64,000 nucleotides of DNA, taken from NCBI RefSeq assembly GCF_004153545.1, contig NZ_SDVA01000006.1, forward strand, positions 1-64,000, given 5' to 3'. This DNA is from Serinicoccus sediminis (GTDB lineage: Bacteria > Actinomycetota > Actinomycetes > Actinomycetales > Dermatophilaceae). Position numbers and translations under genes: made by a program. Positions within the stretch are counted from its first letter, which is position 1. Each line of letters begins with the position of its first letter. The notes beneath the pieces are model-generated. The model was not told where the DNA came from. It saw nothing but the letters and a program-made list of their open reading frames with translations, and searched no databases. Shown here in pieces: positions 176 to 63,155 of the stretch.

Positions 176-3100
176 TCAGCGTGACGGACCACGAGGTTGC
201 CGGGAAGCGCTGTCATGGAGTCGTTGGCGCTCGGCCAGTCGTTGACCGGACCGGAGCCTGTCGCTGGCCGCGTCTGCGGTGGCGGTAGAGGACACGGGTG
301 ACGGTTCTGCCAGCCGGTGCATGAGCCGAGACTGGTGCCTGGCTGCCTGGGGTTCTTTGGTCTGCGGCCCCGTCGGGTTGGGCTCGCTGGGTGGGATGTT
401 GTGGGCGGCTCGCCAGATGGCCAGGTCGCCGATGAGCTGGTCGTGAATGTTCGGGGGCAATGTCCGTCGCCATTGCGCCCGTCCCGTCGCGTCGACCTGC
501 TGTGCTTCGTGGGTGACGCGGTGCTGAAGGTCGTCGATGTGCTGGGTGAGCCGGTCGAGGTAGGCGTCCGTCTCTTGGTCTTGGCGGAGGACTGGTGGGA
601 CGGCGGGCAGCCAGGGCAGGGGCGCGTCCCGGTACGACGGTGGGGTGGTGCCGGCGATGCGCCAGGCGAGGGCGTCGGCGGGGTCGTCGGCCTCGCCGAG
701 TGATTGGCTTGCGCTGTACCAGGTCGCGTCCCGCAAGACGGTCTGTGGTGGGGTGCCGTCGACCCAGCGCAGCGCGAGCTGGCCGCGCAGGTGCGGGTAT
801 GCCGGTTGGTCGGTGAGGCCGGGCATCCACCGTTCGAGGGCGTCGTCCAGGGCTGTCATCTGCTCGTGCCCGAGGTGGTGCTGGGCCAGGACCGGGAGGG
901 CGTCCTGGTAGGCCAGCACGGCCTGGCGCAGCAGCTGGGCGGCGTCGCCGCGTTTGGTGGTCGTGGCCGAGTGGGCGCGGCCATCGCGGGCGAGGATGTC
1001 GGTGAGCACCTGTCGCGGCTCCACGGCCACGTCCTGGACCTCCAGCCCGACACCGTCACCGGTGGTTGTGGGTGTGGTCAGGTAGAGGTGGTTGGTGGCT
1101 CTGCCGCGGGAGAGGGCGACGTACAGGGCCTGTCGGGTCTCGGTGCCGGTGAGGACGGTGTGGGTGGTGTCGACGGTCGCGCCCTGGGCGCCGTGGATGG
1201 TGCTGGCGTACCCCAGCTGGACGTGCTCGGCCACATACCCGGCCGGTAAAACGAAGCTTGCGGGCTTCCTCGCTCCGTCGTCGTGGTGGCGTTGGACGCT
1301 GACGCCCCCATCGGGGTGGACGGCGGTGACCCGCCACCGGTCCCCGTTCTTGACCCACGACCCGTCCCCCGGGCCTAGGGTTCGGTCGTTGCGGCGCGTG
1401 ACCACGGTGTCACCGGCACTGGCACGGGTGCCGTCGCCCAGGGTCACCTCGCGCCCTGACGGCTTCACGGTGCTGTCGAGGCGGTCTTGGCGGGCGCGGT
1501 GGTTCAGCTCGCGCACGGTGTCCCGGGTCGCGGCCAGCAGCAGGCTGGACAGCCCGGCCTTCTGGTCGGCCTTCCAGGCCGCGTATGCGGCGTCGGTCAC
1601 GTCCTCGGTGTCGTCGGTGTGGACCCGGTCGCGGTCGACGTAGTGGTCGAGGGCGGCGGGGTCGCCGTCGCGGATCGCGAGGGTGGCTGCGCCTTCAGCG
1701 GGGTCGGTGAAGCGGTGCAGCTCGGTCAGCGTGGCGGTGGTGCCGTGAGCGTGACCCTGCTCGGCCAGGTCCCGGAGCACCCCACCGGCCGCGACCGCGG
1801 CCAGCTGCTGATCATCCCCCACCAGGCGCACACTGGCGCCGGCGTCTATGACGTGCCGGACCACGGCCGCCAGGTCGCGGGTGCCGGCCATCCCGGCCTC
1901 GTCGATGACCACCAGCGTCCCCGGCCCCACCGCACCACCCATGGTGGGCGGTGGATCCTTGCCGGCTGAGGCACCTGCCGTGACGTGGTCGTGGAGGTGC
2001 TTGGCAAGGGTGTCGGCGGGGATGCCAGTGGCCCGGCCGAGCTCGTCGGCGGCGACCGCGGTCGGCGCCAGACCCAGCACGGTGCCGCCGGAGGCCTCCC
2101 ACGCGCGTGCTAGTACACGTAGCGCCGCGGTCTTGCCCGCGCCGGCCGGTGCCAAAGCGACCTGCACCCGGCACCCGCTTGTGGCCAGGCTGCGGACCAT
2201 CGCGGCCTGAGACCGGTCCAGGCCCGGCCACTGTGTGTTCGCGGCGGCCAGGGCGGTCTCGACCGTGTCGGCACCGGTCTGGCGGCCGTCGCGGCGCAGC
2301 GCGAGGGACAGCAACTCGTCCTCGGCAGCCAGAATTGCCTTTGAGGTGTAGGCCTGGCTGCCGTGCACGGTGTGAGCTGACTGGCCGTCCGGGCGGCGCA
2401 GCGCCCCCGGCTCGCCCAGCTCCGGCGGCACCCCGACCGGGACCGAGAAGCCCTCCAGGACCCACCGTTCGACCTCACGGGCGTGCTCCTCCAGCGTGTC
2501 CAGGGGGACGTGGGCGGCGCGGAGCTGGCGTTGGGTCTCGGCGCGCACGTGCCACACCTGCCACGTCGCCCGCGACCCCTCCAGCACCGACACCACCCGC
2601 GACGCGAGGATCTGCGGACGCACCGCCCTGCGGCGTTGTACCGGTGGGCGCCCCGGCAGCGCCCCCAGCCGCGGACCAGGGGCGATACCCAGATGAGGGC
2701 CATCTTCCTGGGTGCGCCCCCGGCTCTCCGGTGGGCGCCCCCGCCCCGCCCCCAGTGCGCCCTCGACCATCCCCTCCGGGTTGCGCCCCTGCCGGGCGAG
2801 CACGGCGGTGGCCTGCGCCCACCAGGCCCGGCGTTGTTCGGCCTCGGAGCGGGGTTCGTGCTTGCCCGGGCGGGTCTCCAGGTTCGCCTGCTGCGCCAAC
2901 GCCAACGACTCCACCGCCGTCGGCGCCCGGCCGTGAGCATCCCGGAACGCGGTGGCCAGGTCGCGCTGCCGGGCCTCGATCGCCTCCCGCCGCGACGACC
3001 ACGTAGACAGCAACACGGGGTCGATGCCCTCGATCTCTCGCACCGCACGCTTCCCCTGCGGTGAGGGACGCTCGACGAACGCGACGCCGAGTCGCTGCGT

Positions 3101-4006
3101 CAGGCCCGCTTCGAGGTGGGTGTTGTAGTGCTCGGAGGCCATGACCTTGGCCTTGAACAGCATCCGCCCGTCCAACGTCAACCACCGTCCGCCCTCCTCC
3201 GGCAGCGACTGGACCTTGTTCGAGACCACGACGTGGGTGTGCAGGTCCGGGTCCCCGGTCCGCGAGTCGCGGTGGTCGAACGCCGCCGCCACCAACCCGA
3301 CCACGGGCACCTGCCGGATCCCGCCCTTGCCCACCCGCGTGAACGCGACCTCCTTCTCCAGCACGGCGAGGGTCGCGCGGACCGCGTCCCGGTGCGCGGC
3401 CTGCACCTGGCGGGCGATCTCCGGAGGGGCGAGGGCCCACAGGGTCGAGACCGACTTCACCGGCGAGAACGTCAGGTCGAACCCCGCCACCGGCACCTGC
3501 GCCGGCCGCGACGCCCGCGCGACGAACCTCGTCAGCTCGTCCTCGTCCACCGGTGCCCGACCGAGCTGTTCCACGAAGACGTCCCGGGCGACTCGGGTGC
3601 GGATCCGCGCCCGCTCGTCCGCCGGGATCGGAGCGTTCCACGCCAGACCCCTGGCGGTGTTGTGCTCGCTGAACGCACGAGCGGTGACCTGCCGCAAGGT
3701 CGTCTCCTCGAACGTCGGGAACGCCCGCCCCAACCCGCCCCACCCGTTCGCTGCCGCGTGGGGTTCACCGGAGCGCGGGTGGCGGCCCTGCCCAAACAGC
3801 AACCGCATCTGCTCCTCGGTCACCACGTCCCCGGGCTGCAGGTCGAGCCCGGCCAGGCCGGCCCCGAGCCACCGCCCCGGCGCCTCACCCTTCTCCTCGT
3901 AGTACGACGCCAACCCGGCCTGCCGGCGCTCCGTCGCATCGTGCTGGGCGACCTGGCCCGTCAGGTAGGTGTACCCACTCCCCGCGGCCAGTTTGTGCAA
4001 CGTCAT
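176..4006 (-). CDS. MobF-family conjugative relaxase with helicase domain (TraA/TrwC-like)
   Basis: About 1276 aa. It should nick one strand at a transfer origin, stay attached to the 5' end and unwind the plasmid or element for conjugation. The N-terminus MTLHKLAAGSGYTYLT is typical of actinobacterial MobF/TrwC relaxases. The metal-binding histidines are seen as FDHRDSR and LHTHVVV near residues 243-261. A RecD/TraI-like helicase follows: Walker A APAGAGKT near residue 620, Walker B VVIDEAGMAG near 700, and a late YASTIHGAQG motif. A Gly/Pro/Arg-rich linker (roughly residues 415-460) separates the two halves. I chose ATG at 4006 because family members begin with MTLHKL and a GGTAGG stands 4 nt upstream; in-frame TTG 4018 and GTG 4009 are alternatives. 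The domains look intact. No other transfer gene is visible, so this is the edge of a larger element or a remnant. Confidence 0.88.
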   Translation of the reverse strand: MTLHKLAAGSGYTYLTGQVAQHDATERRQAGLASYYEEKGEAPGRWLGAGLAGLDLQPGDVVTEEQMRLLFGQGRHPRSGEPHAAANGWGGLGRAFPTFEETTLRQVTARAFSEHNTARGLAWNAPIPADERARIRTRVARDVFVEQLGRAPVDEDELTRFVARASRPAQVPVAGFDLTFSPVKSVSTLWALAPPEIARQVQAAHRDAVRATLAVLEKEVAFTRVGKGGIRQVPVVGLVAAAFDHRDSRTGDPDLHTHVVVSNKVQSLPEEGGRWLTLDGRMLFKAKVMASEHYNTHLEAGLTQRLGVAFVERPSPQGKRAVREIEGIDPVLLSTWSSRREAIEARQRDLATAFRDAHGRAPTAVESLALAQQANLETRPGKHEPRSEAEQRRAWWAQATAVLARQGRNPEGMVEGALGAGRGRPPESRGRTQEDGPHLGIAPGPRLGALPGRPPVQRRRAVRPQILASRVVSVLEGSRATWQVWHVRAETQRQLRAAHVPLDTLEEHAREVERWVLEGFSVPVGVPPELGEPGALRRPDGQSAHTVHGSQAYTSKAILAAEDELLSLALRRDGRQTGADTVETALAAANTQWPGLDRSQAAMVRSLATSGCRVQVALAPAGAGKTAALRVLARAWEASGGTVLGLAPTAVAADELGRATGIPADTLAKHLHDHVTAGASAGKDPPPTMGGAVGPGTLVVIDEAGMAGTRDLAAVVRHVIDAGASVRLVGDDQQLAAVAAGGVLRDLAEQGHAHGTTATLTELHRFTDPAEGAATLAIRDGDPAALDHYVDRDRVHTDDTEDVTDAAYAAWKADQKAGLSSLLLAATRDTVRELNHRARQDRLDSTVKPSGREVTLGDGTRASAGDTVVTRRNDRTLGPGDGSWVKNGDRWRVTAVHPDGGVSVQRHHDDGARKPASFVLPAGYVAEHVQLGYASTIHGAQGATVDTTHTVLTGTETRQALYVALSRGRATNHLYLTTPTTTGDGVGLEVQDVAVEPRQVLTDILARDGRAHSATTTKRGDAAQLLRQAVLAYQDALPVLAQHHLGHEQMTALDDALERWMPGLTDQPAYPHLRGQLALRWVDGTPPQTVLRDATWYSASQSLGEADDPADALAWRIAGTTPPSYRDAPLPWLPAVPPVLRQDQETDAYLDRLTQHIDDLQHRVTHEAQQVDATGRAQWRRTLPPNIHDQLIGDLAIWRAAHNIPPSEPNPTGPQTKEPQAARHQSRLMHRLAEPSPVSSTATADAASDRLRSGQRLAERQRLHDSASRQPRGPSR

Positions 4007-4065
4007 CACACCTACCAAAAGCCGCGATCCCCAGCGCGGGCGTTCACCAATTTCGGGACGAACCT

Positions 4066-8496: not shown

Positions 8497-9290
8497 GTGA
8501 TGCGCCCCTCCGGCAACCGCAGGGCGGCGGCCAGGTCGGTGGTGGTCCACCCCGAGGCGAGCCAGTGGTCGGCCAAGGTGGTGAGGGTATGCCGCGCGTC
8601 ACCCGACGTGTCCGCAGACCCCCAGGTGCTACGCACCCAGGTGGCCACCGCCGCCGGGTCGTGACCGGAGCGTTCCAGGGCGTCCAGCCGTGTGGTGGAC
8701 CCGAGGCGGGTGCCCAGCAGCAGCACGACGGTGGGGTCGAGCCTGGTGCCCTGGTCGGTGAGCTGCTCCTGCGAGCGCTGCAACGCCTGTCGGACCGTGG
8801 TGGGCGGGGCCGGCAGAGGGACTGCGGCCGGGACGGGTCGTGGCGGGGATACTCTGCGGTCCCCGACCCGTGCCGGGGCATCCGGGGATCTCGGGCACGA
8901 GGGTCGCTGGACAGGTCCGCCAGTCTGTGTGCGCACCGCGGGTGCCGGGGCGTGGCGGTCGACGACTGCCGCCGACACGCACTCCTCGGCCATCGGTGTG
9001 TCGGTGGTGCCGACCGACTCGATGACCTCGGTGTCGCAGGAGTGGCACAGCACGACATCACGCCAGCCCATGATCGAGAGCTGGGTGCCGCGGGAGTGGC
9101 GTCGCATCACCTGCGGACGGGTGGTCAGGTCCTCACCGCCGCAGGTCGCGCACCGCCGTCCTCCGCGCCACCACGACGTCCCACAGCGGGTGCAGGTCAG
9201 CTCGACGTCACCCGCCTCCCGGTCCGGCCGGCCGCGCACCTGGTCGTCGCTGCCGCAGGAGGGGCAGGTCGTGGACGACGGGGAGAACAT
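8493..9290 (-). CDS. Zinc-ribbon protein of unknown function, coupled to prfC
   Basis: About 265 aa, not recognised as a named family. The N-terminal 100 residues hold four CxxC pairs (CPSC, CTRC, CATC, CHSC) in the layout of two zinc ribbons. A Pro-rich low-complexity linker follows, then a C-terminal helical region containing LALRLPEGRIT-like helix-turn-helix sequence at the extreme end (AAALRLPEGRIT). It could be a DNA- or RNA-binding protein; no catalytic motif is seen. It is the first gene of the operon with prfC and merR. TAGACT (9298-9303, minus strand) lies 7 nt before the ATG, so the mRNA is probably leaderless. Confidence 0.7.
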   Translation of the reverse strand: MFSPSSTTCPSCGSDDQVRGRPDREAGDVELTCTRCGTSWWRGGRRCATCGGEDLTTRPQVMRRHSRGTQLSIMGWRDVVLCHSCDTEVIESVGTTDTPMAEECVSAAVVDRHAPAPAVRTQTGGPVQRPSCPRSPDAPARVGDRRVSPPRPVPAAVPLPAPPTTVRQALQRSQEQLTDQGTRLDPTVVLLLGTRLGSTTRLDALERSGHDPAAVATWVRSTWGSADTSGDARHTLTTLADHWLASGWTTTDLAAALRLPEGRIT

Positions 9291-11335: not shown

Positions 11336-12781
11336 ATGGACGACGACGTCAGGGGGTTCCTCCACAGCTTCGCGGAGCTGGTGGAGATGGCGCACCGCTC
11401 GATGGGGGCGCAGGACGGTGAGCCGCTCGCGGACCGGTTGACGGCATACCTCGGCACCCCGGTCGCCGACGTGGCCGTCGTGACCGAGGAGGTGATGAAC
11501 CACCGGTACGCCGACTGGGACGTCGCGCTGGCGGAGGTCGCGGGGCGGGACCCGCAGGCCGCGGAGGTGGGGGTCGGTGGTGGTGACATGCGCCATCACG
11601 TGTCTCTCGGGGACCTCGTGGGCAGTGGCCACGGCCGGGCGTCCGTCGGCCAGGTGGACTACGTCTCCGTCGCGGTCGGCCCGCAGGAGCACCGGCGGGC
11701 GATCGGGCTGGGTCTGCGCCTCTTCCGGTATGCCGGGCACCCCGTCGTGGTGATGCAGCGCAAGGGCAACCCGCAGTACGGCCGTGACCGAGGGACCCTG
11801 GAGCTGCTGTGCGTCGACGAGGACACCCGGACAGCCCTTCTCGACGAGCTGCGCGCCGTGGCGCTGGAGCGCAGCGTGCTGCGGGGGCAGGTCATCGCCT
11901 TCGAGTCCTCGGGGTACGGCCCGGAGGCGCAGGGCGTGACCTTCCTCCCTCGACCCGACGTCGGCGAGGACCAGGTCGTGCTGCCGCACGGGTCGCTCGA
12001 CCGGATCACCGCGCACGTGAGCGGCATCGCCGAGCACGCCGACACCCTCCGACGTCACGGCCAGCACCTCAAGCGCGGTCTCCTCCTCTACGGTCCGCCG
12101 GGCACCGGCAAGACCCACACGGTCCGGCACCTCGTCTCCCGCAGCCCGGACCACACGGTGGTGCTGCTGGCCGGCGAGTCGCTGGGCTACATCTCGCTGG
12201 CCGCCTCGTTGGCCCGTGCCCTGCAACCCGCCGTCGTGGTCCTGGAGGACTGCGACCTGGTCGCCGAGGACCGGAGCATGGGGCCTGGTGGACGTCCGTT
12301 GCTCTTCGAGGTCCTCGACGCCATGGACGGCCTCGACAGCGACGCCGACGTGACCTTCCTGCTCACCACCAACCGGGCCCAGGCCCTGGAGCGCGCGCTG
12401 GTCCAGCGCCCCGGCCGGGTGGACCTCGCGGTGGAGATCCCGCTGCCCGACGAGGCAGGACGCCGCCGGCTGCTCGAGCTCTACCAGGCCGACCTCGCCT
12501 TCGGGGAGGAGGCGCTGGCGGAGGCCGCGCACCGGACGGAGGGGATGACAGCCTCCTTCGTCAAGGAGCTGGTGCGACGCGCCGTCCTGCTGGCGGCGAT
12601 GTCCGCGCAGGAGCCGGGGGACGAGCACCTGCGCGAGGCCCTCGACGGGCTGCTCACCAGCCAGGAGGAGCTCACCAGGGTCTTGCTCGGCAACAGCAGG
12701 CCCGGAGACGTCGAGGGTTCCATGGCACCGGGGATGACCGCCTGGGAGGAGGGAGGCGGGTGTGGCGACCCCTACGGCTGA
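11336..12781 (+). CDS. AAA+ ATPase, Cdc48/FtsH-like module
   Basis: About 481 aa. The first 220 residues have no recognised domain. Then a single AAA+ module: Walker [14 protein letters not shown] near residue 245, Walker B VVVLEDCDLVAED near 300, sensor-1 FLLTTNRAQALERAL and the arginine finger in QRPGRVD. The Walker B region reads LEDCD instead of the usual DEID. Such single-module proteins are ATP-driven unfoldases or chaperones with unknown clients; no protease domain is attached. The gene appears leaderless from TAGGTT. Its 3' end overlaps the convergent metallophosphoesterase gene by 10 bp. Confidence 0.8.
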   Translation: MDDDVRGFLHSFAELVEMAHRSMGAQDGEPLADRLTAYLGTPVADVAVVTEEVMNHRYADWDVALAEVAGRDPQAAEVGVGGGDMRHHVSLGDLVGSGHGRASVGQVDYVSVAVGPQEHRRAIGLGLRLFRYAGHPVVVMQRKGNPQYGRDRGTLELLCVDEDTRTALLDELRAVALERSVLRGQVIAFESSGYGPEAQGVTFLPRPDVGEDQVVLPHGSLDRITAHVSGIAEHADTLRRHGQHLKRGLLLYGPPGTGKTHTVRHLVSRSPDHTVVLLAGESLGYISLAASLARALQPAVVVLEDCDLVAEDRSMGPGGRPLLFEVLDAMDGLDSDADVTFLLTTNRAQALERALVQRPGRVDLAVEIPLPDEAGRRRLLELYQADLAFGEEALAEAAHRTEGMTASFVKELVRRAVLLAAMSAQEPGDEHLREALDGLLTSQEELTRVLLGNSRPGDVEGSMAPGMTAWEEGGGCGDPYG

Positions 12782-13781: not shown

Positions 13782-14246
13782 TCAGGCGCCCAGCGCCTGC
13801 CTCACCGCGGCGGCGACCCGGCCACCCTCGGCGCGGCCGGCCACCCGCGGCTGCAGCACCTTCATCACCCCGCCCATCCCGCGCATGTCGGTGGCGCCGG
13901 TCTCGGAGACCGCCGCGCGCGCGAGCTCGTCGAGCTCCTCGTCGCTGAGCTGGGCGGGCAGGTATGCCTCCAGCACCTCCAGCTCGGCCTCCTCCTGGGC
14001 CGCGAGCTCGGGACGGTTGGCCCCGGTATAGGCCTCGGCCGCCTCGCGGCGCTTCTTGGCCTCCTTGGTGATGACGCGGAGCACCTCGTCGTCGGAGAGC
14101 TCGCGCGCCTGCTTGCCGGCGACCTCCTCGGTCGTCACGGCGGAGAGCGTCATGCGCAGCGTGCCCGCCCGCACCTTGTCCTGCGCGCGCATGGCGGCGG
14201 TGAGGTCCTGCTGGAGGGTGGCCTTGAGGCCGGTCTGCTCGGTCAT
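13782..14246 (-). CDS. GatB/YqeY domain protein
   Basis: About 154 aa, usual YqeY length. LQQDLTAAMRAQDKVRAGTLRMTLSA and the C-terminal GATDMRGMGGVMKVLQPRVAGRAEGGRVAAAV are the conserved YqeY/GatB tail-like helices. The family resembles the tRNA-binding C-terminal domain of amidotransferase subunit B but is free-standing; its role is not firmly known. ATG 14246 has no clear Shine-Dalgarno. The gene is separated from the upstream penicillin-binding protein by a 22-bp tandem repeat region and is followed by the metallophosphoesterase. Confidence 0.88.
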   Translation of the reverse strand: MTEQTGLKATLQQDLTAAMRAQDKVRAGTLRMTLSAVTTEEVAGKQARELSDDEVLRVITKEAKKRREAAEAYTGANRPELAAQEEAELEVLEAYLPAQLSDEELDELARAAVSETGATDMRGMGGVMKVLQPRVAGRAEGGRVAAAVRQALGA

Positions 14247-23566: not shown

Positions 23567-23606
23567 CGACGACGTGGTGCTGGTCCCGGAGGCACTGCCC
23601 GCGACG

Positions 23607-23705
23607 GGCGTTCCGGGCCGGCTCCCGACGTCCATGGTCGGCGTCCCGGGCCGGCTCACCACGTCCATGGGCCGCGTCTCTGACCGGCTGACCACGCCCA
23701 CCTCG
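23607..23705. repeat. 33-bp tandem repeat, 3 copies
   Basis: Copies begin at 23607, 23640 and 23673 (period 33), each with CCGGGCCGGCT-like and ACGTCCATGG-like blocks; copy 3 is the most diverged. A period divisible by 3 gives an 11-residue repeat in any frame, but no supported gene covers it. Confidence 0.75.
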
Positions 23706-23802
23706 AGCCGCTGCGGACGGCGCTCGTGAGCCAGTCGCTCGCCACGGCTCGGGTGCCCTGCCCGAGGTCCGTTCCGACACGCTCCGACAGGCCCTCCGCA
23801 GC

Positions 23803-39947: not shown

Positions 39948-40108
39948 ACCGCCATGATGGAGAAACTGCGTCGAAAGTTCAAGGACGCCACAGGATCAGC
40001 GGTACGATCCGCGTCCTGACGATGTTCGTCCCGGAACGCCACGCGTCGGCCGTAGCATCAGCGCCTCGATCCGGACCGGCGCGGCGCCCGGCCGGGTGAG
40101 GGGCGGCA

Positions 40109-40114
40109 TACCCT
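40109..40114 (+). promoter_or_regulatory. -10 element TACCCT (leaderless start of the Lrp-type gene)
   Basis: TACCCT ends exactly 6 nt before GTG 40121. It is part of one copy of the GGCATACC octamer. Confidence 0.55.
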
Positions 40115-42192: not shown

Positions 42193-43352
42193 GCGTCTTC
42201 GCCCAGCTCGTGGGTCAGCCCCGGGTGGTGCAGACGCTGCGCCGGGCCGCCGGCGACCCGGCCGCGATGACGCACGCCTGGCTGTTCACCGGGCCCCCCG
42301 GGTCGGGACGGTCGGTCGCCGCCCGCACCTTCGCCGCCGCGCTGCAGTGCGAGCAGCTGGAGGGCGGCCCGGAGCAGGTGGGGTGCGGGCGGTGCCAGCC
42401 GTGCCGCATGGTCATGGCCGGCAGCCACCCGGACGTCCGCATCGTCGACACCGAGCAGACCTTCATCAAGGTCGACGAGGCCCGAGAGCTCGTGCTCGAG
42501 GCGCAGGCGCGGCCCAGCCTCGGCCGGTGGCGGGTGATGGTCGTCGAGGACGCGGACCGGCTCAACGACCACTCGGCCAACACGCTGCTCAAGTCCCTCG
42601 AGGAGCCGACGGCACGCACGGTGTGGATGCTCTGCGCCCCGTCCCTGGAGGACGTCCTGGTGACCATCCGCTCGCGCTGCCGGCACGTGCGGCTCGGCAC
42701 CCCCTCCGCCGGGGCGGTCGCCGACCTGCTCATCGAGCGCGACGGGATCGACCCGGCGATGGCGCACTACGCGGCGCGCGCCGCGCAGAGCCACATCGGC
42801 ATCGCGCGGCGGCTGGCGACCGACGAGCACGCCCGCGCCCGCCGGCGCGAGATCACCGGCATACCCCTGTCGCTGGTGACCCTGGGCGACGCCCTGCGGG
42901 CCGCGCAGGATCTCGTGGACGAGGCCGGGGAGGGTGCCAAGGCGACCTCGGCCGACCACGCGGAGGAGCAGCGGCGCGACCTGCTGGAGCAGCTGGGGGC
43001 CGATGCGTCCGCCCGGACCCAGCCGCCCTCGGTGCGGGCCCACCTGCGCCGCCTCGACGACCGGCTCAAGGCGGAGGCCAAGCGGCAGCAGCACGACAGC
43101 ATCGACGCCGCCCTCACCGACCTCGCCTCGGTCTACCGCGACGCGCTGCTCGTGGCGGCCGGCGCGTCGGTGGAGCGCATCAACGCCAGCGAGCCGGAGC
43201 AGATCGAGCGGCTCGCACGTTCCTTCACCGCAGAGGGCCTCCTCGGGGCGCTGGAGACGATCGGCGAGGCGCGCCGGCGGCTCGTCGCCAACGGCGCGCC
43301 GCTGCTGGTCCTGGAGGCCATGATGATTGGGTTGCTCTTGCCCCGGGGGTGA
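42189..43352 (+). CDS. holB: DNA polymerase III delta' subunit
   Basis: About 387 aa. Clamp-loader subunit. It has the AAA-type fold with TGPPGSGRSVAA (Walker A with Arg replacing the Lys, so probably no ATP hydrolysis, as in other delta' proteins). A zinc module CGRCQPC near residue 63, VVEDADRLNDHSANTLLKSLEEP and TIRSRCRHVRL (SRC motif) follow. The C-terminal collar domain is long. It is coupled to tmk by GTGA, the standard pair in bacteria. The downstream hydrolase starts 25 nt later. Confidence 0.93.
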   Translation: MSVFAQLVGQPRVVQTLRRAAGDPAAMTHAWLFTGPPGSGRSVAARTFAAALQCEQLEGGPEQVGCGRCQPCRMVMAGSHPDVRIVDTEQTFIKVDEARELVLEAQARPSLGRWRVMVVEDADRLNDHSANTLLKSLEEPTARTVWMLCAPSLEDVLVTIRSRCRHVRLGTPSAGAVADLLIERDGIDPAMAHYAARAAQSHIGIARRLATDEHARARRREITGIPLSLVTLGDALRAAQDLVDEAGEGAKATSADHAEEQRRDLLEQLGADASARTQPPSVRAHLRRLDDRLKAEAKRQQHDSIDAALTDLASVYRDALLVAAGASVERINASEPEQIERLARSFTAEGLLGALETIGEARRRLVANGAPLLVLEAMMIGLLLPRG

Positions 43353-44964: not shown

Positions 44965-45039
44965 GCGACCGGGCCCAGCCCGTGTCCCCACGAGATGCAC
45001 CGTGGGTATGCCGCAGCTGGAGCAGGCGGCGCACCACGG

Positions 45040-46840: not shown

Positions 46841-47050
46841 CCCACTATCCCCTGTCGTATGCCGCGCGCCTGCACGCCACGGACGTCGTCGTCGCCGGTG
46901 GCCCGGTGCGGGCCATGGTACCGCGAGCGGCACGGGTGTCGGCCCCGTGCACCGGTACGACGAGGGGAGGCCTCGGATGGTTCCGCAGGAGGTCAGGTGG
47001 CCTGCCACCTTCGGCCCGGCCGGGGCCGGCGGACGGTCCGGCGGGTGGGC

Positions 47051-47660: not shown

Positions 47661-49199
47661 GTGAGACGTCTGGCCAGCACGCCCCGCCGCAGCCCACGGT
47701 ATGCCCTCGCGCCGGTCGCCGCGCTCGCGGTGGTCGTCGGGGTGGTCGCGCCGGCGACGTCCGCCCCGCTCGCCGGCGCGACCGCGCGAGCGGGCGCCAC
47801 CCAGGAACCGGCCTCGGGCGCCACCCAGGAGCCGGCTCCCGAGGACCGGGCCGACGTCACCGCCGAGCCCCCGCCGACCCCGGGCGAGGTGCGCCCGCGG
47901 ATCGCCGCGTCCACCAGCCCGCTGCGCCCGGTCACCGCGGCCCCGGTGCCGGACCGGGGGGCCGTGTCGGGGCAGGTCAGCGACGAGCTGGACAGCACCT
48001 GGCTGGGCGGCACCACCCGCCGGGCCGTCGCCATCCGGGACGCGCTGACCGGCGAGCCGCTGGGCGACCGCTACTCCTCGCGCCTCGTCACCCCCGCCTC
48101 GACCACCAAGCTCCTGGCGGCCGCGGCCGTCGTCACCGCCCTCGAGGGCGACCGCACCTTCACCACCCGGGTGGTCGCCGGCGCCGACCCGGACGAGGTG
48201 GTCCTCGTGGCCGGCGGGGACATGCTCCTCGCCGACGGCGACGGGGACCCGGAGGCCGTCGCCGGCCACGCGGGCATCGCCGACCTCGCCGGGCAGACCG
48301 CCGCCTCGCTCGCCGGCGGGGACGGGCAGGACGCCCCCGAGGGCCCGGTCCGGGTGAGCCTGGACCTGACCTACGCCGAGGGGCCGGACGCCGTGCCCAC
48401 GTGGATCGACCGGTGGGTCGCGGAGGGCTTCGCCGGGCGGGTCGTCCAGCTGGGCCGCTCCGGGGACCGGGCCCGACCGTTCAACCCCTCGCCCCGCTCG
48501 CCCGAGCAGCAGGTGGCCAGGGTCTTCCGGGAGGCGCTCGCCGAGCAGGGCGTCGAGGTCGCGGGCGCCGGCGACGACGAGACGCGGGCCCCGGAGGTCG
48601 AGGTGCCGGCGGAGGCGCGCGAGCTCGCGAGCGTGGAGTCCGCGGCCGCCCGGGACGTGCTGGCCCTGGCGCTGGCGACGAGCGACAACGCCATGGTCGA
48701 GCAGCTGGCCCGCCAGGCGGCGGTGGCCGACGGCGAGGCCGCGGACCAGGAGTCGGTGACGGCGTGGATCCGGCAGACGATGGTCGACGACTACGGCCTG
48801 GACATGACCGGCGTCCGGATCGTCGACGCCAGCGGGCTGTCCGACGGCACCCTGATCCCGGTCGCCGCCGTCGCCGACGTGCTCGTCGCCGGTGCCGACG
48901 GCTCCCACCCGCGGCTGCAGGAGGTGCTGGCCGCCGGCGGCCTGCCGATCGCCGGCTACACCGGCACCCTCGCCACCCGGTTCCACCTCGAGGTGCACGA
49001 CCCGGCCGTGGGCAACGCCCGGGCCAAGACCGGGACGCTGCCCGGCGTCAGCTCCCTCGCCGGCACCGTCGTCACGCGGGACGGACGCCTGCTCGTCTAT
49101 GCCATGACCGCCGACGACATCGACGAGGGTTCCGCGGCGATCGAGGCGGCGTCGGTGCTGGACGAGGTGGTCGCCGACCTCGCCCGCTGCGGCTGCTGA
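47661..49199 (+). CDS. dacB: D-alanyl-D-alanine carboxypeptidase/endopeptidase (PBP4, S13)
   Basis: About 512 aa. Exported: a basic start with hydrophobic helix [17 protein letters not shown] and a Pro/Ala/Thr linker containing a duplicated GATQEPA unit. The penicillin-binding motifs are STTK (PASTTKLL, active Ser), SDN ([10 protein letters not shown]) and KTG (RAKTGTLPG). S13 enzymes trim or cut peptidoglycan peptide crosslinks. I chose GTG 47661 (GGGAGGT 10 nt upstream) because the preceding in-frame residues look like non-coding DNA. It heads the conserved run to hpt. Confidence 0.9.
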
Positions 49200-50396: not shown

Positions 50397-51395
50397 GTGC
50401 CCGGACCGCCGCCGGCGCTGGCCGCCGCGCGGGTCGCAGTGCGGCGGTGGCTGCACGACGCCGGCCCGGAGCCGGGTGCGCTCCTGGTGCTCGCCTGCTC
50501 CGGCGGCCCCGACTCCCTCGCCCTCGTGGCTTCCGCCGGGTTCGTCGCACCGCGGGAGGGGTACGCCGTCGCCGCGGTCGTCGTCGACCACGGGCTGCAG
50601 CCGGGCTCGGAGGAGACCGCGCGGGGGGCGGCGCAGCACTGCCGCCGGCTGCTCCCGGACGGGTCGGCCGTGGAGGTGGTCCGGGTGTCCGTGGGGAGCA
50701 CGGGCGCCGGGCCGGAGGCGGACGCCCGGGAGGCGAGGTATGCCGCGCTGCAGGGAGCCGCGAGCCGGCTCGGTGCCTCCGCGGTCCTGCTGGGCCACAC
50801 CCGCGACGACCAGGCCGAGCAGGTCCTGCTCGGCCTGGCCCGGGGGTCCGGGACCCGCTCGCTGGCCGGTATGCCCGACCGGCGCCCCCTCGGCGAGGGG
50901 CTGCTGCTCGGCCGGCCGCTGCTGGGGCTGTCCCGGGAGCAGACCGAGACCGCCTGCGCCGAGCTGGGTCTCACGCCGTTCCACGACCCGCACAACGAGG
51001 ACCGCCGCTTCGCGCGGGTCCGCGCCCGGCAGGCGCTCGCCACCCTCGAGGCCGATCTCGGCCCCGGCCTCGCCGCCAACCTGGCGCGCACCGCCGACCT
51101 GGCCCGCGACGACGCCGACGCGCTCGGCGCCCTGGCGGACACGGCATACCTCGAGCTGGGGGAGCAGCCCTGGGCGGTCGGGGCGCTCGAGGCGCTGCCC
51201 CGGGCGGTCCGCACCCGGCTGTGGCGCCGGCTGGCGCTGGAGAAGGGCAGCCCCGGCACCGACCTCACCGGCGAGCACCTGCGGGCGGTCGACGCCCTCG
51301 TCACGCACTGGCGCGGGCAGGGCCCGCTGCACCTGCCCGGCGGGGTGCGGGCCGCCCGGACGGGGGAGGGGGTGCAGGTGCGGCGTGAGGCATAG
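50397..51395 (+). CDS. tilS: tRNA(Ile)-lysidine synthase
   Basis: About 332 aa. It modifies C34 of tRNA-Ile(CAU) to lysidine with ATP and lysine. The PP-loop SGGPDSLAL is at about residues 34-42; VVDHGLQPGSEETA and LLGHTRDDQAEQVLLGLARGSG complete the N-type ATP pyrophosphatase fold. The protein is shorter than E. coli TilS and lacks most of its C-terminal domains, as usual for actinobacteria. GTG 50397 is 4 nt after the DUF2342 stop. Confidence 0.93.
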   Translation: MPGPPPALAAARVAVRRWLHDAGPEPGALLVLACSGGPDSLALVASAGFVAPREGYAVAAVVVDHGLQPGSEETARGAAQHCRRLLPDGSAVEVVRVSVGSTGAGPEADAREARYAALQGAASRLGASAVLLGHTRDDQAEQVLLGLARGSGTRSLAGMPDRRPLGEGLLLGRPLLGLSREQTETACAELGLTPFHDPHNEDRRFARVRARQALATLEADLGPGLAANLARTADLARDDADALGALADTAYLELGEQPWAVGALEALPRAVRTRLWRRLALEKGSPGTDLTGEHLRAVDALVTHWRGQGPLHLPGGVRAARTGEGVQVRREA

Positions 51396-55801: not shown

Positions 55802-56644
55802 GTGACGCGGCAGCACACCTCGATCATGGGCGTGGTCAACGTCACCCCCGACTCCTTCAGCGACGGGGGTCGCTTCACGGACGTCGACGCGGCGGTCGCC
55901 CGTGGTCGGGAGCTCGCCGCTGCCGGCGCCGACGTCGTCGACGTCGGCGGCGAGTCGACCCGGCCCGGCAGCAGCCGGCCCGAGGAGCAGGAGGAGCGCG
56001 AGCGGGTGCTCCCGGTCGTCTCCGCCCTCGCGCAGCTGGGGTATGCCGTGTCCGTCGACACCATGCGCGCGTCCGTGGCGCAGGCCGCCCTGGAGGCGGG
56101 GGCGGTCCTCGTCAACGACGTGTCCGGAGGGCTGGGGGACCCGGAGATGGGGCCGATGGTCGCCCAGACCGGCGCCCGGTACGTCGTCATGCACTGGCGC
56201 GGGCTGCTGAGCGACCCCGCTGCCACCCACCACTACGACGACGTCGTGGGGGAGGTCTGCGCCGAGCTCACCGACCGGGTCGACGTGCTCCTGGGCCACG
56301 GGGTGCGGGAGGAGCAGCTGGTCCTGGACCCGGGGCTCGGCTTCTCCAAGGACGCCGGTCACAACTGGGCCCTGCTGGCCGGGCTGGACCGCGTCGTCGC
56401 CCTGGGTCTGCCGGTGCTCGTCGGGGCCTCCCGCAAGCGGTTCCTGGGCCGGCTGCCGGCCCGGCCGGGGGAGGCGCTCCCGGACGAGCCCAGCGCGCCG
56501 CAGGAGCGTGACGCCGCGACCGCCGCCACGAGCCTGCTCGCCGCGCAGGCCGGGGCCTGGGCGGTGCGCGTGCACGAGGTGGCGCCGACCCGCGACGCGC
56601 TGGCCGTGTGGGAGCTCGTGGAGGAGGCCCGCGGTGCGCGGTGA
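55802..56644 (+). CDS. folP: Dihydropteroate synthase
   Basis: About 280 aa. It joins dihydropterin pyrophosphate with p-aminobenzoate; target of sulfonamides. IMGVVNVTPDSFSDGGRF, VDVGGESTRPGS and the final VRVHEVAPTRDALAV are hallmark segments. GTG 55802 is 7 nt after folE's stop. The 3' end overlaps folBK by 11 nt. Confidence 0.95.
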   Translation: MTRQHTSIMGVVNVTPDSFSDGGRFTDVDAAVARGRELAAAGADVVDVGGESTRPGSSRPEEQEERERVLPVVSALAQLGYAVSVDTMRASVAQAALEAGAVLVNDVSGGLGDPEMGPMVAQTGARYVVMHWRGLLSDPAATHHYDDVVGEVCAELTDRVDVLLGHGVREEQLVLDPGLGFSKDAGHNWALLAGLDRVVALGLPVLVGASRKRFLGRLPARPGEALPDEPSAPQERDAATAATSLLAAQAGAWAVRVHEVAPTRDALAVWELVEEARGAR

Positions 56645-57533
56645 CCTCATCCGCCTCACCGGGGTGCGGGCCCGCGGGCACCACGGGGTGTTCGCGCACG
56701 AGCGCCGCGACGGGCAGGACTTCGTCGTGGACGTGACCATGGAGGTCGACCTCGCCCCCGCGGGCGCCAGCGACGAGCTCAGCAGGACGGTCGACTACGG
56801 CGCGGTGGCCGCCGACGTCGTCGCCGTGGTCCAGGGCGAGCCGCGCGACCTCGTCGAGACGGTCGCCGAGGAGATCGCCGCGCGCGTGCTGGCGCGCCCC
56901 CTCGTCGAGTCCGTCGAGGTCACCGTGCACAAGCCGCAGGCACCCGTGGGGGTGCCCTTCCACGACGTCGCCGTGGTGGTGCGTCGGCGCACGGACGTGC
57001 CCGTCGTCATCGCGCTGGGGGCCAACCTGCCCGGCCCGGACGGGGCGGAGCCGGCGCAGACGGTCCGGCACGCCGCCCAGCGGCTGCGCCGGCTGCGGGG
57101 CCTGCGCGGTGTGCGGGTGTCCCGTTCCTTCCGGACCGCCCCGGTGGGTGGGGAGGCTGTCGCCGGGCAGCCGGACTACGTCAACGCGGTCGCCGTGGGC
57201 CGCACCAGCCTGGCGCCCGCCTCGCTGCTCGCGGCCCTGCACCGGGTGGAGGACGACCTCGGCCGCACCCGGGACGTGCGGTGGGGGGCGCGGACCCTCG
57301 ACCTCGACCTCGTGCAGTACGGCGACCCCGCCACCGGCGCCGACGTGCGCAGCCACGACCCGGAGATCACGCTGCCGCACCCGCGGGCCCACGAGCGTGC
57401 CTTCGTCCTCGTCCCCTGGGCCGACCTCGACCCCGGGGCGAGCCTGCGCGTCGGCGAGGGCGTCGTGCTGGTGCGCGACCTCATACCCGCTGCTGCGGAG
57501 CAGCCCGTCGCACCGGTCGAGGAGACCGGGTGA
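56634..57533 (+). CDS. Fused dihydroneopterin aldolase / HPPK
   Basis: About 299 aa, two enzymes in one chain. Residues about 1-120 are dihydroneopterin aldolase (FolB): LTGVRARGHHGVFAHERRDGQDFVVDV and RTVDYGAVA. Residues about 123-285 are 6-hydroxymethyl-dihydropterin pyrophosphokinase (FolK): VVIALGANLP and WGARTLDLDLVQYGD with LPHPRAHERAFVLVPWADL. No stop or frame change separates them; the join has the sequence VRRRTDVPVV. GTG 56634 lies inside folP. The stop overlaps the next start (GTGA). Confidence 0.93.
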   Translation: MRGDLIRLTGVRARGHHGVFAHERRDGQDFVVDVTMEVDLAPAGASDELSRTVDYGAVAADVVAVVQGEPRDLVETVAEEIAARVLARPLVESVEVTVHKPQAPVGVPFHDVAVVVRRRTDVPVVIALGANLPGPDGAEPAQTVRHAAQRLRRLRGLRGVRVSRSFRTAPVGGEAVAGQPDYVNAVAVGRTSLAPASLLAALHRVEDDLGRTRDVRWGARTLDLDLVQYGDPATGADVRSHDPEITLPHPRAHERAFVLVPWADLDPGASLRVGEGVVLVRDLIPAAAEQPVAPVEETG

Positions 57534-58033
57534 GCGGGCAGGACGGCGTGCGGGGCGGGACGGGTGCCGTCGTGGCCGTGCTCAGCGGCATGGCCAGCTG
57601 GTTGCTGCTGCAGGTGGTGCGCTCGCTCGGCGGCGGCTACCCGACGATCTCGTGGATCGGCCTGGTGCCGCTCGTCGCCGTCGCGCTGCTCGTGCTCGTC
57701 ATGTGCTGGCAGATCCGCCGCTACCTGCAGGGCCGGGGGGGCCTGCGCCCGTCCCCGCAACGCGGTCGCGGCACCCTCGTCGGGGCACAGGCGGCGGCGC
57801 TGGGTGGCGCCGCGCTGCTGGGCTGGTATGCCGCGAACGCCCTGGTCCACCTGCCGAACGCCGACGTCCCCAGCGAGCGGGCGCAGCTGGTGTGGGGTCT
57901 CGTGCACGCCGCCGTGGCGCTCGGGCTGTCGGTGGCCGGCTACCTCGGCCAGGCGTGGTGCCGGATCCCGCCGACCGAGCACGACGACGACGATGACGAC
58001 GGGGTCGGCGACGGCGACCTCGCCTACGGCTGA
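57530..58033 (+). CDS. DUF3180-type membrane protein
   Basis: About 167 aa. Four hydrophobic helices: VVAVLSGMASWLLLQVV, IGLVPLVAVALLVLVMCW, a third in GAQAAALGGAALLGWYAANAL and a fourth near LVHAAVALGLSVAGYLG. The tail is Asp-rich (HDDDDDDGVGDGD). It is regularly the gene after folK in actinobacteria; function unknown. GTG 57530 overlaps folBK's stop. Confidence 0.85.
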   Translation: MSGQDGVRGGTGAVVAVLSGMASWLLLQVVRSLGGGYPTISWIGLVPLVAVALLVLVMCWQIRRYLQGRGGLRPSPQRGRGTLVGAQAAALGGAALLGWYAANALVHLPNADVPSERAQLVWGLVHAAVALGLSVAGYLGQAWCRIPPTEHDDDDDDGVGDGDLAYG

Positions 58034-59316: not shown

Positions 59317-60366
59317 TCACCCTATGCCCGGGTCGCGCCCGTCACCGGGCTGCGCACCGACCGGCACCAGCAGCCACCAGAAGTCGCCCAGCGCACCGCT
59401 GGTGAGGGTGGTGAGGGCCGCCCGGCGGGCCAACGCGTCGAGGTATGCCTGGGGGTCGGTCCGCGCGAGGGCGTGCGGCACCGGCGGGCCGGGGTCGCCC
59501 AGCAGGTCGTGCAGGACCTCGCGCTGGCGGACGAGCTGCGGCGGGTCCGTCGCCGGGCTGGTGCCGAGGGAGGCGAGGAGGGCGTCCACCGCGACGTGGG
59601 CGGTGAGGTCGCAGGTGCCGTCCGGCACCGGGGTGACCTCGCGGCCGGCGCGGAAGCCGGTGAGGGTGCCGCCCCGCGGCCGGTCGTCCGCGGTGTGGCC
59701 GTAGTCGACCACCACCACCAGGCCGCTGCGCACCCGGCCCAGGAGGTCGGCCAGCGCGGCCTCGCGGGGCCGGCCCACCTCGCCACGCCGGTCCGGGGCG
59801 CGATCCTCGGCCCGGCCAGGCCCGTCGTCGAGCCAGCGGCGCACCCAGGCGAGGTCCTCGCCGTGCACGACCGGGCCGAGCTCCTCGGTGCCGTCCGGGG
59901 CGACGTCGAGCGAGCGCCATACCCCGGCGTCGTCGCGGGCGACCACCGGGCAGGGCACGACGTCGAGCCACTCGTGCGCCACCACCAGCGTCCGCTCGAG
60001 GTCACGGAGGCCGCGGGGCAGGGCCGCGCCACCGGGGGAGACCAGCCAGGCGTCCACCTCGAGCGTCGACGGCCGGGGGACGACGTCGACCCCGGTGAGG
60101 TGCAGGGACGCGTCGAGGGTGCGGACCTGCGCCAGCAGCTCGCCGCGCCCGCAGCCGACGTCGACGACCCGGTCGCACCCGTGGCGGTGCGCCAGGGCGA
60201 CGACCGCCTCGGCGAGCAGCGGGCCTGCCCCCGGGATGCCCCGGGCGGAGGTCGCGAAGTGCGCGGCGGGCGCTCCCTGCCGGTAGAACCCGTCGGCCGC
60301 GTAGAGCGCCTCCTGCCACGCCCGGTCCCAGGGCGTCGCGCTGTCGGGAGGTGCCGGGGCGCTCAT
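59317..60366 (-). CDS. MidA/NDUFAF7-like SAM-dependent methyltransferase
   Basis: About 349 aa. The N-terminus [25 protein letters not shown] is the substrate-side start of MidA proteins. The cofactor loop is [15 protein letters not shown], followed by [16 protein letters not shown] (the NE.LDALP-like motif, here HEWLDVVP) and [22 protein letters not shown]. In mitochondria the family member NDUFAF7 methylates an arginine of NDUFS2, the NuoD homologue. Here the gene is directly upstream of nuoD, 4 nt apart, supporting a substrate link (inference). It is divergent from the CaCA gene, with 19 bp between starts. Confidence 0.82.
59319..59324 (-). promoter_or_regulatory. -10 element TAGGGT overlapping the midA stop codon
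   Basis: TAGGGT on the minus strand ends exactly 6 nt before GTG 59312 of nuoD; its last bases are part of the upstream gene's TGA. Confidence 0.5.
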
Positions 60367-60377: not shown

Positions 60378-60385
60378 GCCGCATC

Positions 60386-61559: not shown

Positions 61560-63155
61560 GTGCGCACCTCCCGCCTCCACCTCGACCACGACCGCTGCGC
61601 TGCGGCCGTGCGCAGCAGGGACCCCCGCTTCGACGGCTGGTTCGTCACCGGGGTGCTGAGCACCGGCATCTACTGCCGGCCCAGCTGCCCGGCCATCACC
61701 CCCCGGGTGCGCAACATGCGCTTCTACCCCAGCGCGGCGGCGGCCCAGGGCGCCGGGTTCCGCGCCTGCAAGAGGTGCCTGCCGGACGCCACCCCCGGGT
61801 CGCCGGAGTGGCACGTCCGCGGGGACGTCGTGGCCCGGGCGGTGCGGCTGGTCGCGGACGGGGTGGTGGACCGGGAGGGCGTCGGGGGGCTCGCCACCCG
61901 GCTCGGCTACTCCGTGCGGCAGCTGGAGCGGCTCGTGCATGCCGAGCTGGGCGCCGGTCCGCTGGCCCTGGCGCGGGCGCAGCGGGCCCAGGCCGCCCGC
62001 CTGCTCGTCGAGGGCACCGGCCTGTCCATGGTCGACATCGCCCACGCCGCCGGCTTCTCCAGCACCCGCTCCTTCAACGCGACGGTGCGCGAGGTGTATG
62101 CCGCCTCGCCCTCCGAGCTGCGCGCGGCCGCGGCGCGCCGCAAGGGGACCGGGTCGGGATCGACGGCGGGCGGGTCGGGTGCCACGGGGGCGGGGGCCCC
62201 GGTGACCATCTCCCTCCGGCTGCCCTTCCGCCCGCCGCTGCACGTGCCCAGCCTCTTCGGCCACCTGGTCGCGACCTCGGTCCGCGGGCTGGAGGACTGG
62301 TCGGACGGGGAGCTGACCCGCGCCGTGCGGCTGCCCGGTGGGCCGGCGCTGCTGGTGCTGCGCCCGGGCGACGAGGGGGAGCGGCACGTGCACGTCACCC
62401 TGCGGCTCACCGAGGTGGCCGACCTCGGTGCCGCCATCGGCCGCTGCCGCCGTCTCCTCGACCTCGACGCCGACCCGGTCGCCGTCGACGAGCACCTCGG
62501 GGCCGACCCGGCGCTGGCGCCGCTCGTCCGCGACCACCCGGGGGTGCGGCTGCCGGGAACCGTCGACGCCGGCGAGCTGGCGCTGCGGGTGGTCCTCAGC
62601 CAGCAGGTCTCCACGGCCGCCGCGGGCACGCACACGGCCCGGCTCGTCCGGGCGCTCGGCACGCCGCTGCCGGAGCCGATGAGCGGCCGGGTGACCCACC
62701 TCTTCCCGACCCCGGCCCAGGTCGCCGCGGCAGACGCGGAGGACCTCCCGGCCATGCCGGCCTCCCGGCAGCGGACGCTGCGCACGGTCGCGCAGGCGCT
62801 GGCCGAGGGCGGCCTGCGGCTCGACCAGGGGACGGACTGGCAGGAGGCGCGCGAGTCCCTGCTCGCGCTCCCCGGCGTCGGCCCGTGGACGGCCGAGATG
62901 GTCCTGCTGCGCGGGCTCGGCGACCCGGACGCCTTCCCGGCGACCGACCTGGGGGTCAAGGTCACCGCGGCCGCCGCCGGCCTGCCGACCGGCCCCCGGC
63001 TCATCGGGCACGCCGAGCACTGGCGGCCCTGGCGCAGCTACGCCACCGCCGTCCTCTGGGCCGCCTCGGACCACGCGGCCGCCCGCCTGCCCACGCACGC
63101 GCCCCCGCCCCGCCCGGGCGACGGCATACCCCCCACCACCCAGGAGACAGCATGA
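61560..63155 (+). CDS. Ada metal-binding/AraC-HTH/AlkA fusion DNA repair protein
   Basis: About 531 aa. Three parts: an Ada N-terminal zinc domain (GIYCRPSCPA and FRACKRCLPD, four Cys), an AraC-type HTH (about residues 95-185, GLATRLGYSVRQLERLVHAELG), and an AlkA 3-methyladenine glycosylase (about 205-500) with helix-hairpin-helix LPGVGPWTAEMV and catalytic Asp in ATDLGV. It senses methyl phosphotriesters, activates repair genes and removes alkylated bases. The start is uncertain: GTG 61560 fits family N-termini (RTSRLHLDHDRCAAAV), GTG 61533 is the longest. Its stop overlaps the next start (ATGA). Confidence 0.9.
   Translation: MRTSRLHLDHDRCAAAVRSRDPRFDGWFVTGVLSTGIYCRPSCPAITPRVRNMRFYPSAAAAQGAGFRACKRCLPDATPGSPEWHVRGDVVARAVRLVADGVVDREGVGGLATRLGYSVRQLERLVHAELGAGPLALARAQRAQAARLLVEGTGLSMVDIAHAAGFSSTRSFNATVREVYAASPSELRAAAARRKGTGSGSTAGGSGATGAGAPVTISLRLPFRPPLHVPSLFGHLVATSVRGLEDWSDGELTRAVRLPGGPALLVLRPGDEGERHVHVTLRLTEVADLGAAIGRCRRLLDLDADPVAVDEHLGADPALAPLVRDHPGVRLPGTVDAGELALRVVLSQQVSTAAAGTHTARLVRALGTPLPEPMSGRVTHLFPTPAQVAAADAEDLPAMPASRQRTLRTVAQALAEGGLRLDQGTDWQEARESLLALPGVGPWTAEMVLLRGLGDPDAFPATDLGVKVTAAAAGLPTGPRLIGHAEHWRPWRSYATAVLWAASDHAAARLPTHAPPPRPGDGIPPTTQETA

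Follow-up and report, generated by a model that had tools for sequence, protein, structure and literature searches.

To our knowledge, few hyperabundant DNA words with a function are known, namely uptake sequences, Chi and HIP1. The present analysis concerns the octamer GGTATGCC, with its core GTATGCC, in a stretch of 64,000 nucleotides from Serinicoccus sediminis (positions 1 to 64,000 of contig NZ_SDVA01000006.1; hereafter the window), in the genome to which the window belongs (G000) and across the family Dermatophilaceae. The word is abundant, conserved above its neighbors, balanced between the strands and spaced according to its orientation; a different word, CGAAGGGGG, is found in two genera of the family, and some other members lack the word. 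The reading that we favor, at a rough probability of 0.38, is that GTATGCC(G) is a genome-wide mark of self DNA, read one strand at a time by a protein that can switch its specificity, with natural transformation as the likeliest process.

The closest described systems share some of these features and lack others. The DNA uptake sequence (DUS) of the Neisseriaceae is likewise hyperabundant and asymmetric, occurs in both orientations and forms inverted pairs; its density in the loci that served as controls here is 0.59 distinct sites per kb. The excerpted text of one study describes family-wide DUS dialects, with some members devoid of the word, and a CTG core common to the dialects (PMC3630211), whereas the two words described here share no such core. 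The uptake signal sequence (USS) of the Pasteurellaceae is also hyperabundant and asymmetric and forms inverted pairs; according to an excerpt, close inverted pairs are reported for known uptake sequences, and where such USS pairs stand at the ends of Haemophilus genes, they serve as terminators (PMC7811141). Chi, GCTGGTGG, the site of E. coli RecBCD, resembles the word in being an asymmetric octamer, and is read on one strand. HIP1 and the alternative highly iterated palindromes (HIPs) of cyanobacteria resemble it in their high abundance and in that some relatives have few copies or a replacement (PMC4390886, in excerpt), but the HIPs are palindromic and linked to methyltransferases. The words examined here are not palindromes, and their distribution is not followed by that of the single methyltransferase family tested. 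Finally, the FtsK-orienting polar sequences (KOPS) that guide FtsK run from the origin to dif, in contrast to the strand-balanced word.

Abundance and orientation-specific spacing

In G000 (3,547,192 bases in 97 contigs), GGTATGCC occurs 1,363 times, 698 times in the forward and 665 times in the reverse direction, as against only 18 occurrences (10 + 8) of its reversed string. The window contains 18 exact copies (12 plus, 6 minus), compared with a mean of 0.59 and a maximum of no more than 3 in 100 dinucleotide shuffles, and 23 copies of the core GTATGCC (16 plus, 7 minus), compared with a shuffle mean of 2.1. An earlier note on this DNA had listed at least 18 copies in both orientations and had called the word strongly over-represented; these statements hold, and 17 of the 18 listed coordinates are exact (50878 should read 50868).

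The excess was also measured in a 464-kb sample of G000, consisting of the window and 20 stretches of 20 kb. The 167 copies of GGTATGCC in this sample exceed the expectation of Markov models of orders 0–3 (5–15 copies) and of order 4 (82 copies), while at orders 5–6, the comparison that the earlier note had proposed, the excess vanishes (164–169 expected). We regard the higher orders as uninformative in this respect, because the pentamers to heptamers within the word are already inflated by the word itself, which the model thereby absorbs. When the genes of the sample, taken from a simple open reading frame caller made for the present analysis, were subjected to 60 rounds of synonymous-codon shuffling with proteins and codon usage held constant, 6.5 genic copies of GGTATGCC were expected and 128 were observed, a 20-fold excess; for GTATGCCG the figures were 7.3 and 165. 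Therefore, codon usage does not explain the excess. Each of the six reading relations to genes is represented among the copies, Tyr-Ala or Ala-Tyr being the commonest. The Tyr codon TAT is scarce in the sample (172 TAT, 2,300 TAC), and 105 of these 172 TAT codons lie within the word, as do 155 of 227 in the relative G012.

The orientation of neighboring copies was analyzed in a set of 841 GTATGCC copies from G000, G012 and 18 stretches of 17 other genomes. Pairs in the same orientation are depleted at short range: none was found below 60 bp (20.4 expected), 6 at 60–120 bp (21.1 expected), 17 at 120–250 bp (44.5), 49 at 250–500 bp (85) and 123 at 500–1000 bp (168), and beyond this distance the ratio is about 1.0. 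Summed below 1 kb, there are 195 same-orientation pairs versus 339 expected, and 388 opposite pairs versus 336 expected. Neighboring copies accordingly alternate, only 275 of 782 being in the same orientation (permutation mean 376.6, z = −7.5; z = −4.1 in G000, −6.4 in G012 and −2.5 in the mixed set), and the 34 neighboring core pairs that lie within 60 bp of each other are all inverted, some of them forming long hairpins. At 60–1000 bp, 293 same and 569 opposite pairs were counted for this word (p = 3.5e-21). The pattern was replicated in another genus, where 400 contiguous kb of G141 contain 93 same-orientation pairs of GTATGCCG below 1 kb versus 182 expected, and 220 opposite pairs versus 183.5. 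The second word behaves similarly, with 50 same-orientation pairs below 1 kb versus 92 expected, 103 opposite pairs versus 92, an alternation z of −2.7 and a ratio of 48 same to 79 opposite at 60–1000 bp (p = 0.0075); it also forms inverted pairs within 60 bp.

Seven other octamers and eleven heptamers served as controls and showed either no bias or an excess of same-orientation pairs; several of them share the codon contexts of the word, and some have few sites. The exception is GTGTGCC, one base off the word, with 6 same and 18 opposite pairs at 60–1000 bp; GTACGCC showed 2 same and 9 opposite pairs below 60 bp, and 14 of each at 60–1000 bp. Deletion between direct repeats is disfavored as the cause of the repulsion, since DUS, of similar length and density, is without it.

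Form, conservation and placement of the word

When the octamers of the 464-kb sample are ranked by their excess over an order-3 model, GTATGCCG comes first (203 versus 13) and GGTATGCC next (167 versus 9.9), with C or T as the usual next base. Most of the genera sampled have the 3′ G nearly always but the 5′ G only optionally, whereas G012 differs in preferring the 5′ G and tolerating other 3′ bases. The word is thus a fixed core, GTATGCC, usually followed by G, with flanks that drift between species.

The conservation of the window sites was compared with that of in-frame neighboring heptamers in five relatives at 78–88% aligned identity. The sites are kept in 11 of 19, 13 of 19, 13 of 20, 12 of 19 and 5 of 18 cases, against backgrounds of 0.37, 0.40, 0.26, 0.19 and 0.20, respectively. 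Among 92 changed sites, pooled from the five comparisons in both directions so that the same site may count more than once, 49 differ by one substitution and 5 involve gaps. The single changes fall at positions 1, 2, 3, 4, 6 and 7, the commonest being T to C at position 4 (12 of 49), and a single mutational source of the changes was rejected on account of this spread.

Copies were described in the earlier note as lying mostly inside core genes; 14 of the 18 copies of GGTATGCC in the window lie in called genes, with four between them. The copies of the octamer, and those of the core that lack the 5′ G, are as follows.

796–803, plus: GGTATGCC, antisense in the gene at 176–4009 (Ala-Tyr codons)
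8586–8593, plus: GGTATGCC, intergenic
11443–11450, minus: GGTATGCC, within the gene at 11336–12781
11727–11734, plus: GGTATGCC, within the gene at 11336–12781
13961–13968, plus: GGTATGCC, within the gene at 13782–14246
30098–30105, plus: GGTATGCC, within the DEAH-box helicase gene at 28782–31100 (TIGR03817)
32009–32015, plus: core without 5′ G, within the pyrophosphatase gene at 31299–33581
34120–34127, minus: GGTATGCC, within the gene at 33689–35080
34588–34594, plus: core without 5′ G, within the gene at 33689–35080
37309–37315, minus: core without 5′ G, within topA at 36005–38731
40105–40112, minus: GGTATGCC, intergenic
42858–42865, minus: GGTATGCC, within the DNA polymerase III delta′ gene at 42189–43352
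45005–45012, plus: GGTATGCC, intergenic
46857–46863, plus: core without 5′ G, intergenic
47698–47705, plus: GGTATGCC, intergenic
50737–50744, plus: GGTATGCC, within the gene at 50439–51395
50868–50875, plus: GGTATGCC, within the gene at 50439–51395 (the copy placed at 50878 in the earlier note)
51143–51150, minus: GGTATGCC, within the gene at 50439–51395
56040–56047, plus: GGTATGCC, within the gene at 55802–56644
57825–57832, plus: GGTATGCC, within the gene at 57530–58033
59442–59449, plus: GGTATGCC, within the gene at 59317–60366
62096–62102, plus: core without 5′ G, within the gene at 61560–63155
63123–63130, minus: GGTATGCC, within the gene at 61560–63155

The stretch from 14 to 30 kb, in which no copy had been seen, is indeed free of both GGTATGCC and the core; by a rough estimate, a 16-kb gap at about 0.28 copies per kb is only mildly unusual. 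A Tad/Flp pilus locus (22703–27838) falls within this stretch. The density of the core rises to about 1.5 copies per kb in the densest stretch sampled. Among the 20-kb stretches of G000, one (L012; G000:C7:1-20000) has a GC content of 0.649, compared with about 0.74 in most others, and few called genes; it is probably acquired DNA, and it contains 4 core copies, compared with 5–21 in the other 19.

Relative to genes, the intergenic density of GGTATGCC is 1.2–2 times the genic density, and that of the second word is 3.7–5.3 times the genic density. Relative to strands, 20 stretches of G012, a single contig of 3.6 Mb, contain 70 plus and 82 minus copies of GGTATGCC in the first eleven and 60 of each in the last nine, as measured along the contig with the origin position not mapped. 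Lists of copies on long contigs that appeared to be all plus are probably an ordering artefact; a direct reading of the first 20 kb of one such contig, G001:C1, shows both strands.

Distribution in the family and candidate readers

In the genus of the window, GGTATGCC is present in 285–2,180 copies in 30 of 31 genomes, the exception being G009 with 38; a 772-aa helicase shares 82–92% identity with its counterparts in named relatives, by which the window belongs in Serinicoccus or next to it. A survey of the family, based on counts of GGTATGCCG in 186 genomes of 53 genera, yielded 105 rich genomes (at least 190 copies), 14 intermediate (60–189) and 67 poor (fewer than 60), by cut-offs of our own and a hand tally. 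The reversed string does not exceed 118 copies per genome, and the word is more than 5-fold higher in 104 of the 105 rich genomes; in the remaining one, G039, it is merely about 2-fold higher (245 versus 118). In the genus of G039 (g4; G035–G037 and G039) the reversed string is raised, and GCCGTATG reaches 462 copies in G036 and GCCGTATGG 118 in G039. The comparison with related genera, which the earlier note had suggested, thus finds the word abundant within the family, and none of 290 genomes sampled outside it (from a class-wide sample of 296) has more than about 52 copies of GTATGCCG per Mb, compared with 427 per Mb in G000. Word-poor members also occur inside word-rich genera, namely G009 (g1), G038 (g4) and G114 (g33).

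A scan for the top words in 100 kb of each of four poor genomes revealed CCCCCTTCG in G082, with 38 copies versus 2.3 expected. Its complement, CGAAGGGGG, is present in 797–1,939 copies in all 16 genomes of g27 and all three of g36, and in no more than 80 copies in any of the other 167 genomes of the family. The two words have no common core and are not abundant together: GGTATGCCG does not exceed 20 copies in any of the 19 genomes bearing the second word, and the second word is in excess in none of the 105 rich genomes and has no copy in the window. In the remaining 48 poor genomes neither word is abundant, and when 7- to 9-mers were ranked in 100 kb from each of G160 (g46), G184 (g53) and G114, the top ranks contained no replacement of similar strength. 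The occurrence of an unrelated word in two genera is the most surprising part of these results and, together with the word-poor congeners, is the best handle on the reader.

Other words were noticed in passing. In 100 kb of G114 (L140–L144), CTGGCCAA shows a moderate excess (16 versus 1.0), and 300 kb of G094 (L165–L179) contain a separate near-palindromic family, AAAACCCTAGG / ACCCTAGGGT, with about 20–45 copies where almost none are expected. In a 22-kb locus of Granulicoccus phenolivorans (L050), the palindrome GCGTACGC is over-represented (22 versus 2.5 counting both strands, hence about 11 places) and is possibly a HIP-like word in another actinobacterial family.

The presence of candidate reader genes was compared with that of the word across the 186 genomes, and none of those tested (ComEC, RecC, PilM, the N6_N4 methyltransferase and PDDEXK_1) tracks it. 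ComEC (PF03772) is found in 180 genomes and was rejected as a switch, being near-universal; in G000 it gives two matches (best E 3.2e-32), whereas most relatives give one near 1e-45, perhaps because a contig end divides the gene or because it is broken. PilM_2 (PF11104), a marker of the type IVa pilus that is expected for DUS-type uptake, matches in 7 genomes, in 6 of them over the cut-off, and has no match in 179; a type IVa pilus receptor was rejected on this ground, in a search that did not include the minor pilin itself. RecC (PF04257; 89 genomes) is unrelated to the word, and the PDDEXK_1 nuclease domain (PF12705) is in all 186. The N6_N4 methyltransferase (PF01555; 75 genomes) was rejected, as it has no match in the word-rich G000, G003, G004, G012, G013, G020 and G030. 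Two adjacent full-length open frames, presumed to encode AdnA and AdnB from their size, adjacency, Walker motif and mutual similarity, are present in the word-poor G038 and G114, so that a loss of AdnAB as the cause of word poverty is not seen there; in G009 a contig ends inside the locus. The remaining possibilities are that a conserved protein has changed its specificity or that the reader is a gene outside those tested.

Weighing the possible functions

Since only same-orientation copies repel each other, redundancy would seem to be limited to sites that share a strand, and the reader would thus be strand-specific or unidirectional with a reach of about 1 kb; the strand balance points to an equal need for the two directions. 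We infer a strand-wise reader, a molecular drive and DNA uptake as the process. A feasible model may be that a receptor or nuclease recognizes the asymmetric word in incoming DNA, of which one strand would be imported and then integrated from the word over roughly 1 kb. Alleles bearing the word would be converted into the population more often than word-less alleles, and such molecular drive would build the word up wherever protein coding tolerates copies. Within one import tract, a further same-orientation copy would add nothing, and such copies would thin out, while opposite copies would serve the other strand and hence be independent.

The spacing and the balance are predicted alike by directional uptake and integration, by Chi-like processing of DNA ends and by strand-specific marking for repair. 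Uptake is ranked first because molecular drive is the easiest route to abundance at many weakly selected sites, and because known uptake systems likewise have inverted pairs, an excess between genes, dialects and relatives without the word. Of the functions offered in the earlier note, an uptake-like sequence fits best, by the abundance of the word, its non-polar distribution, its inverted pairs, its intergenic excess and a variation that resembles dialects. It is consistent with this reading that the window carries the Tad/Flp pilus locus, with a TadA ATPase (TIGR03819) and TadE-like pilins beside the TIGR03817 helicase, that ComEC is so widespread in the family, and that one low-GC stretch of G000 is poor in the word; transformation of Micrococcus luteus needs a Tad/Flp-type pilus, according to the excerpted text of PMC4322843.

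Several observations weigh against natural transformation. No competence gene tracks the word: ComEC, as well as ComEA and the Tad locus where examined, is also present in word-poor genomes or loci. In four of eight loci inspected by eye, a helix-hairpin-helix end, which we take for ComEA, can be read upstream of comEC, namely in the word-poor G160, G156 and G050 as well as in the word-rich G026. Homologs of the Tad/Flp genes likewise adjoin this helicase in loci of Phycicoccus and Janibacter that lack GTATGCCG. A search of open-licence PubMed Central for genera of the family listed nothing on transformation in them. The earlier suggestion of an uptake-like sequence agrees with the abundance, non-polarity, inverted pairs and intergenic excess, and departs from the known examples in its spacing. 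In 119 Neisseria loci from IMG/VR (619 distinct sites), DUS shows no significant orientation bias at 60–1000 bp (168 same, 199 opposite, p = 0.12; 8 and 19, p = 0.05, in the 60–120 bp bin alone), and in 96 of 99 Pasteurellaceae loci USS shows no repulsion (45 same, 41 opposite), its 250–500 bp bin leaning the opposite way (14 same, 3 opposite). The contigs for both controls were picked for holding an inverted pair, which biases the bin below 60 bp and left it unused, and their site density is uneven, affecting both orientations equally. With the E. coli Chi considered below, these three known yardsticks are all set apart from both words by the spacing pattern. Some forms and samples also show the features of the word less clearly. 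Alternation is weaker for the GGTATGCC form (z = −1.8 in G000, −5.2 in G012 and −1.1 in the mixed set) and for the 8-base form of the second word, CGAAGGGG (z = −1.9), and is invisible in the window alone, where two of the 23 core copies stand in the same orientation 131 bp apart; the window is too small to show it. In G012, GTATGCCG is less dense between genes (0.27 per kb) than within them (0.52 per kb), and the 5 of 18 sites kept in the most distant relative are hardly above background.

Next after uptake comes a Chi-like site, which we consider less probable: a helicase-nuclease other than RecBCD would degrade DNA from its broken ends and stop on meeting the word in one of the strands. AdnAB is, in our view, the obvious candidate enzyme. 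NucS is an actinobacterial mismatch nuclease that makes two-ended breaks, and such breaks would need one site per orientation within about 1 kb, giving balanced strands and orientation-specific spacing. An orientation-specific function fits the spacing directly, the PDDEXK_1 domain is universal in the family and one low-GC stretch is poor in the word. Polarity may not be obligatory either, given the non-polarized candidate Chi sites in Vibrio described in the excerpted part of PMC8022716, but the same excerpt puts E. coli Chi at about one per 5 kb, well below the density of the word. In the 550 kb sampled from a single chromosome, E. coli Chi also has strands of 88:32 and clusters in one orientation (below 1 kb, 28 same versus 16.2 expected and 6 opposite versus 10.5), the reverse of the repulsion seen here. 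RecC, moreover, has no match in the word-rich G035–G037 and G039, and matches in the word-poor G038 and in 15 of 16 g27 genomes, which argues against the RecBCD-type Chi site that the earlier note had considered; the presumed AdnA and AdnB frames of G038 and G114 count against the broader version. A HIP1-like mark appears a little less likely still. An orphan methyltransferase would modify the asymmetric word on one strand, a new methyltransferase would bring a new word, and methyl-directed repair would discriminate or nick a strand only at words of its own, so that each orientation would be needed once per repair-tract length. The abundance resembles that of HIP1, the unrelated second word and the strand-specific range of about 1 kb fit, and cyanobacterial alternative HIPs replace HIP1 together with a matching methyltransferase (PMC4390886, in excerpt). 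On the other hand, HIPs are palindromes, the soft, species-drifting flanks of the word resemble a binding preference more than a methylation site, and the failure of PF01555, the only methyltransferase family searched, to track the word gives no support to a methylation target of the N6_N4 type.

A nucleoid-associated or segregation protein that binds the word would account for its genome-wide occurrence and balanced strands, but gives no reason why same-orientation copies should repel each other while opposite copies are free; we consider this improbable, and a polar, KOPS-like segregation guide misfits the strand balance in the 20 stretches of G012. Composition, codon-pair usage or repeat elements could draw on the absorption of the word by Markov orders 5–6 and on the few genomes with a raised reversed string, such as G039. 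We take this explanation as refuted by the family counts, with 67 of 186 genomes poor in the word and the reversed string far below it in nearly all rich ones, and by the synonymous shuffles; in addition, the differences between species are mostly substitutions.

It is tempting to go beyond natural transformation and propose, still tentatively, a strand-wise self-recognition system unlike any known uptake sequence, Chi or HIP, in which an asymmetric word would be set independently on each strand, with same-strand copies held apart within about 1 kb, and whose reader would have switched at least once to an unrelated word with about a thousand sites. Among the matches listed in open-licence PubMed Central, none on GGTATGCC was on this subject by its title, and none was found there for GTATGCCG as a whole word. 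The orientation-specific spacing can be tested simply from genome sequence and may distinguish strand-wise readers from readers of double strands, and a word that is rich in some congeners, absent in others and replaced in two genera offers a natural experiment by which the gene of the reader might be found. Should the word prove to be an uptake mark, it would be new among Gram-positive bacteria, to judge from the papers listed in searches of open-licence PubMed Central, and it would show species barriers to gene exchange across a large family.

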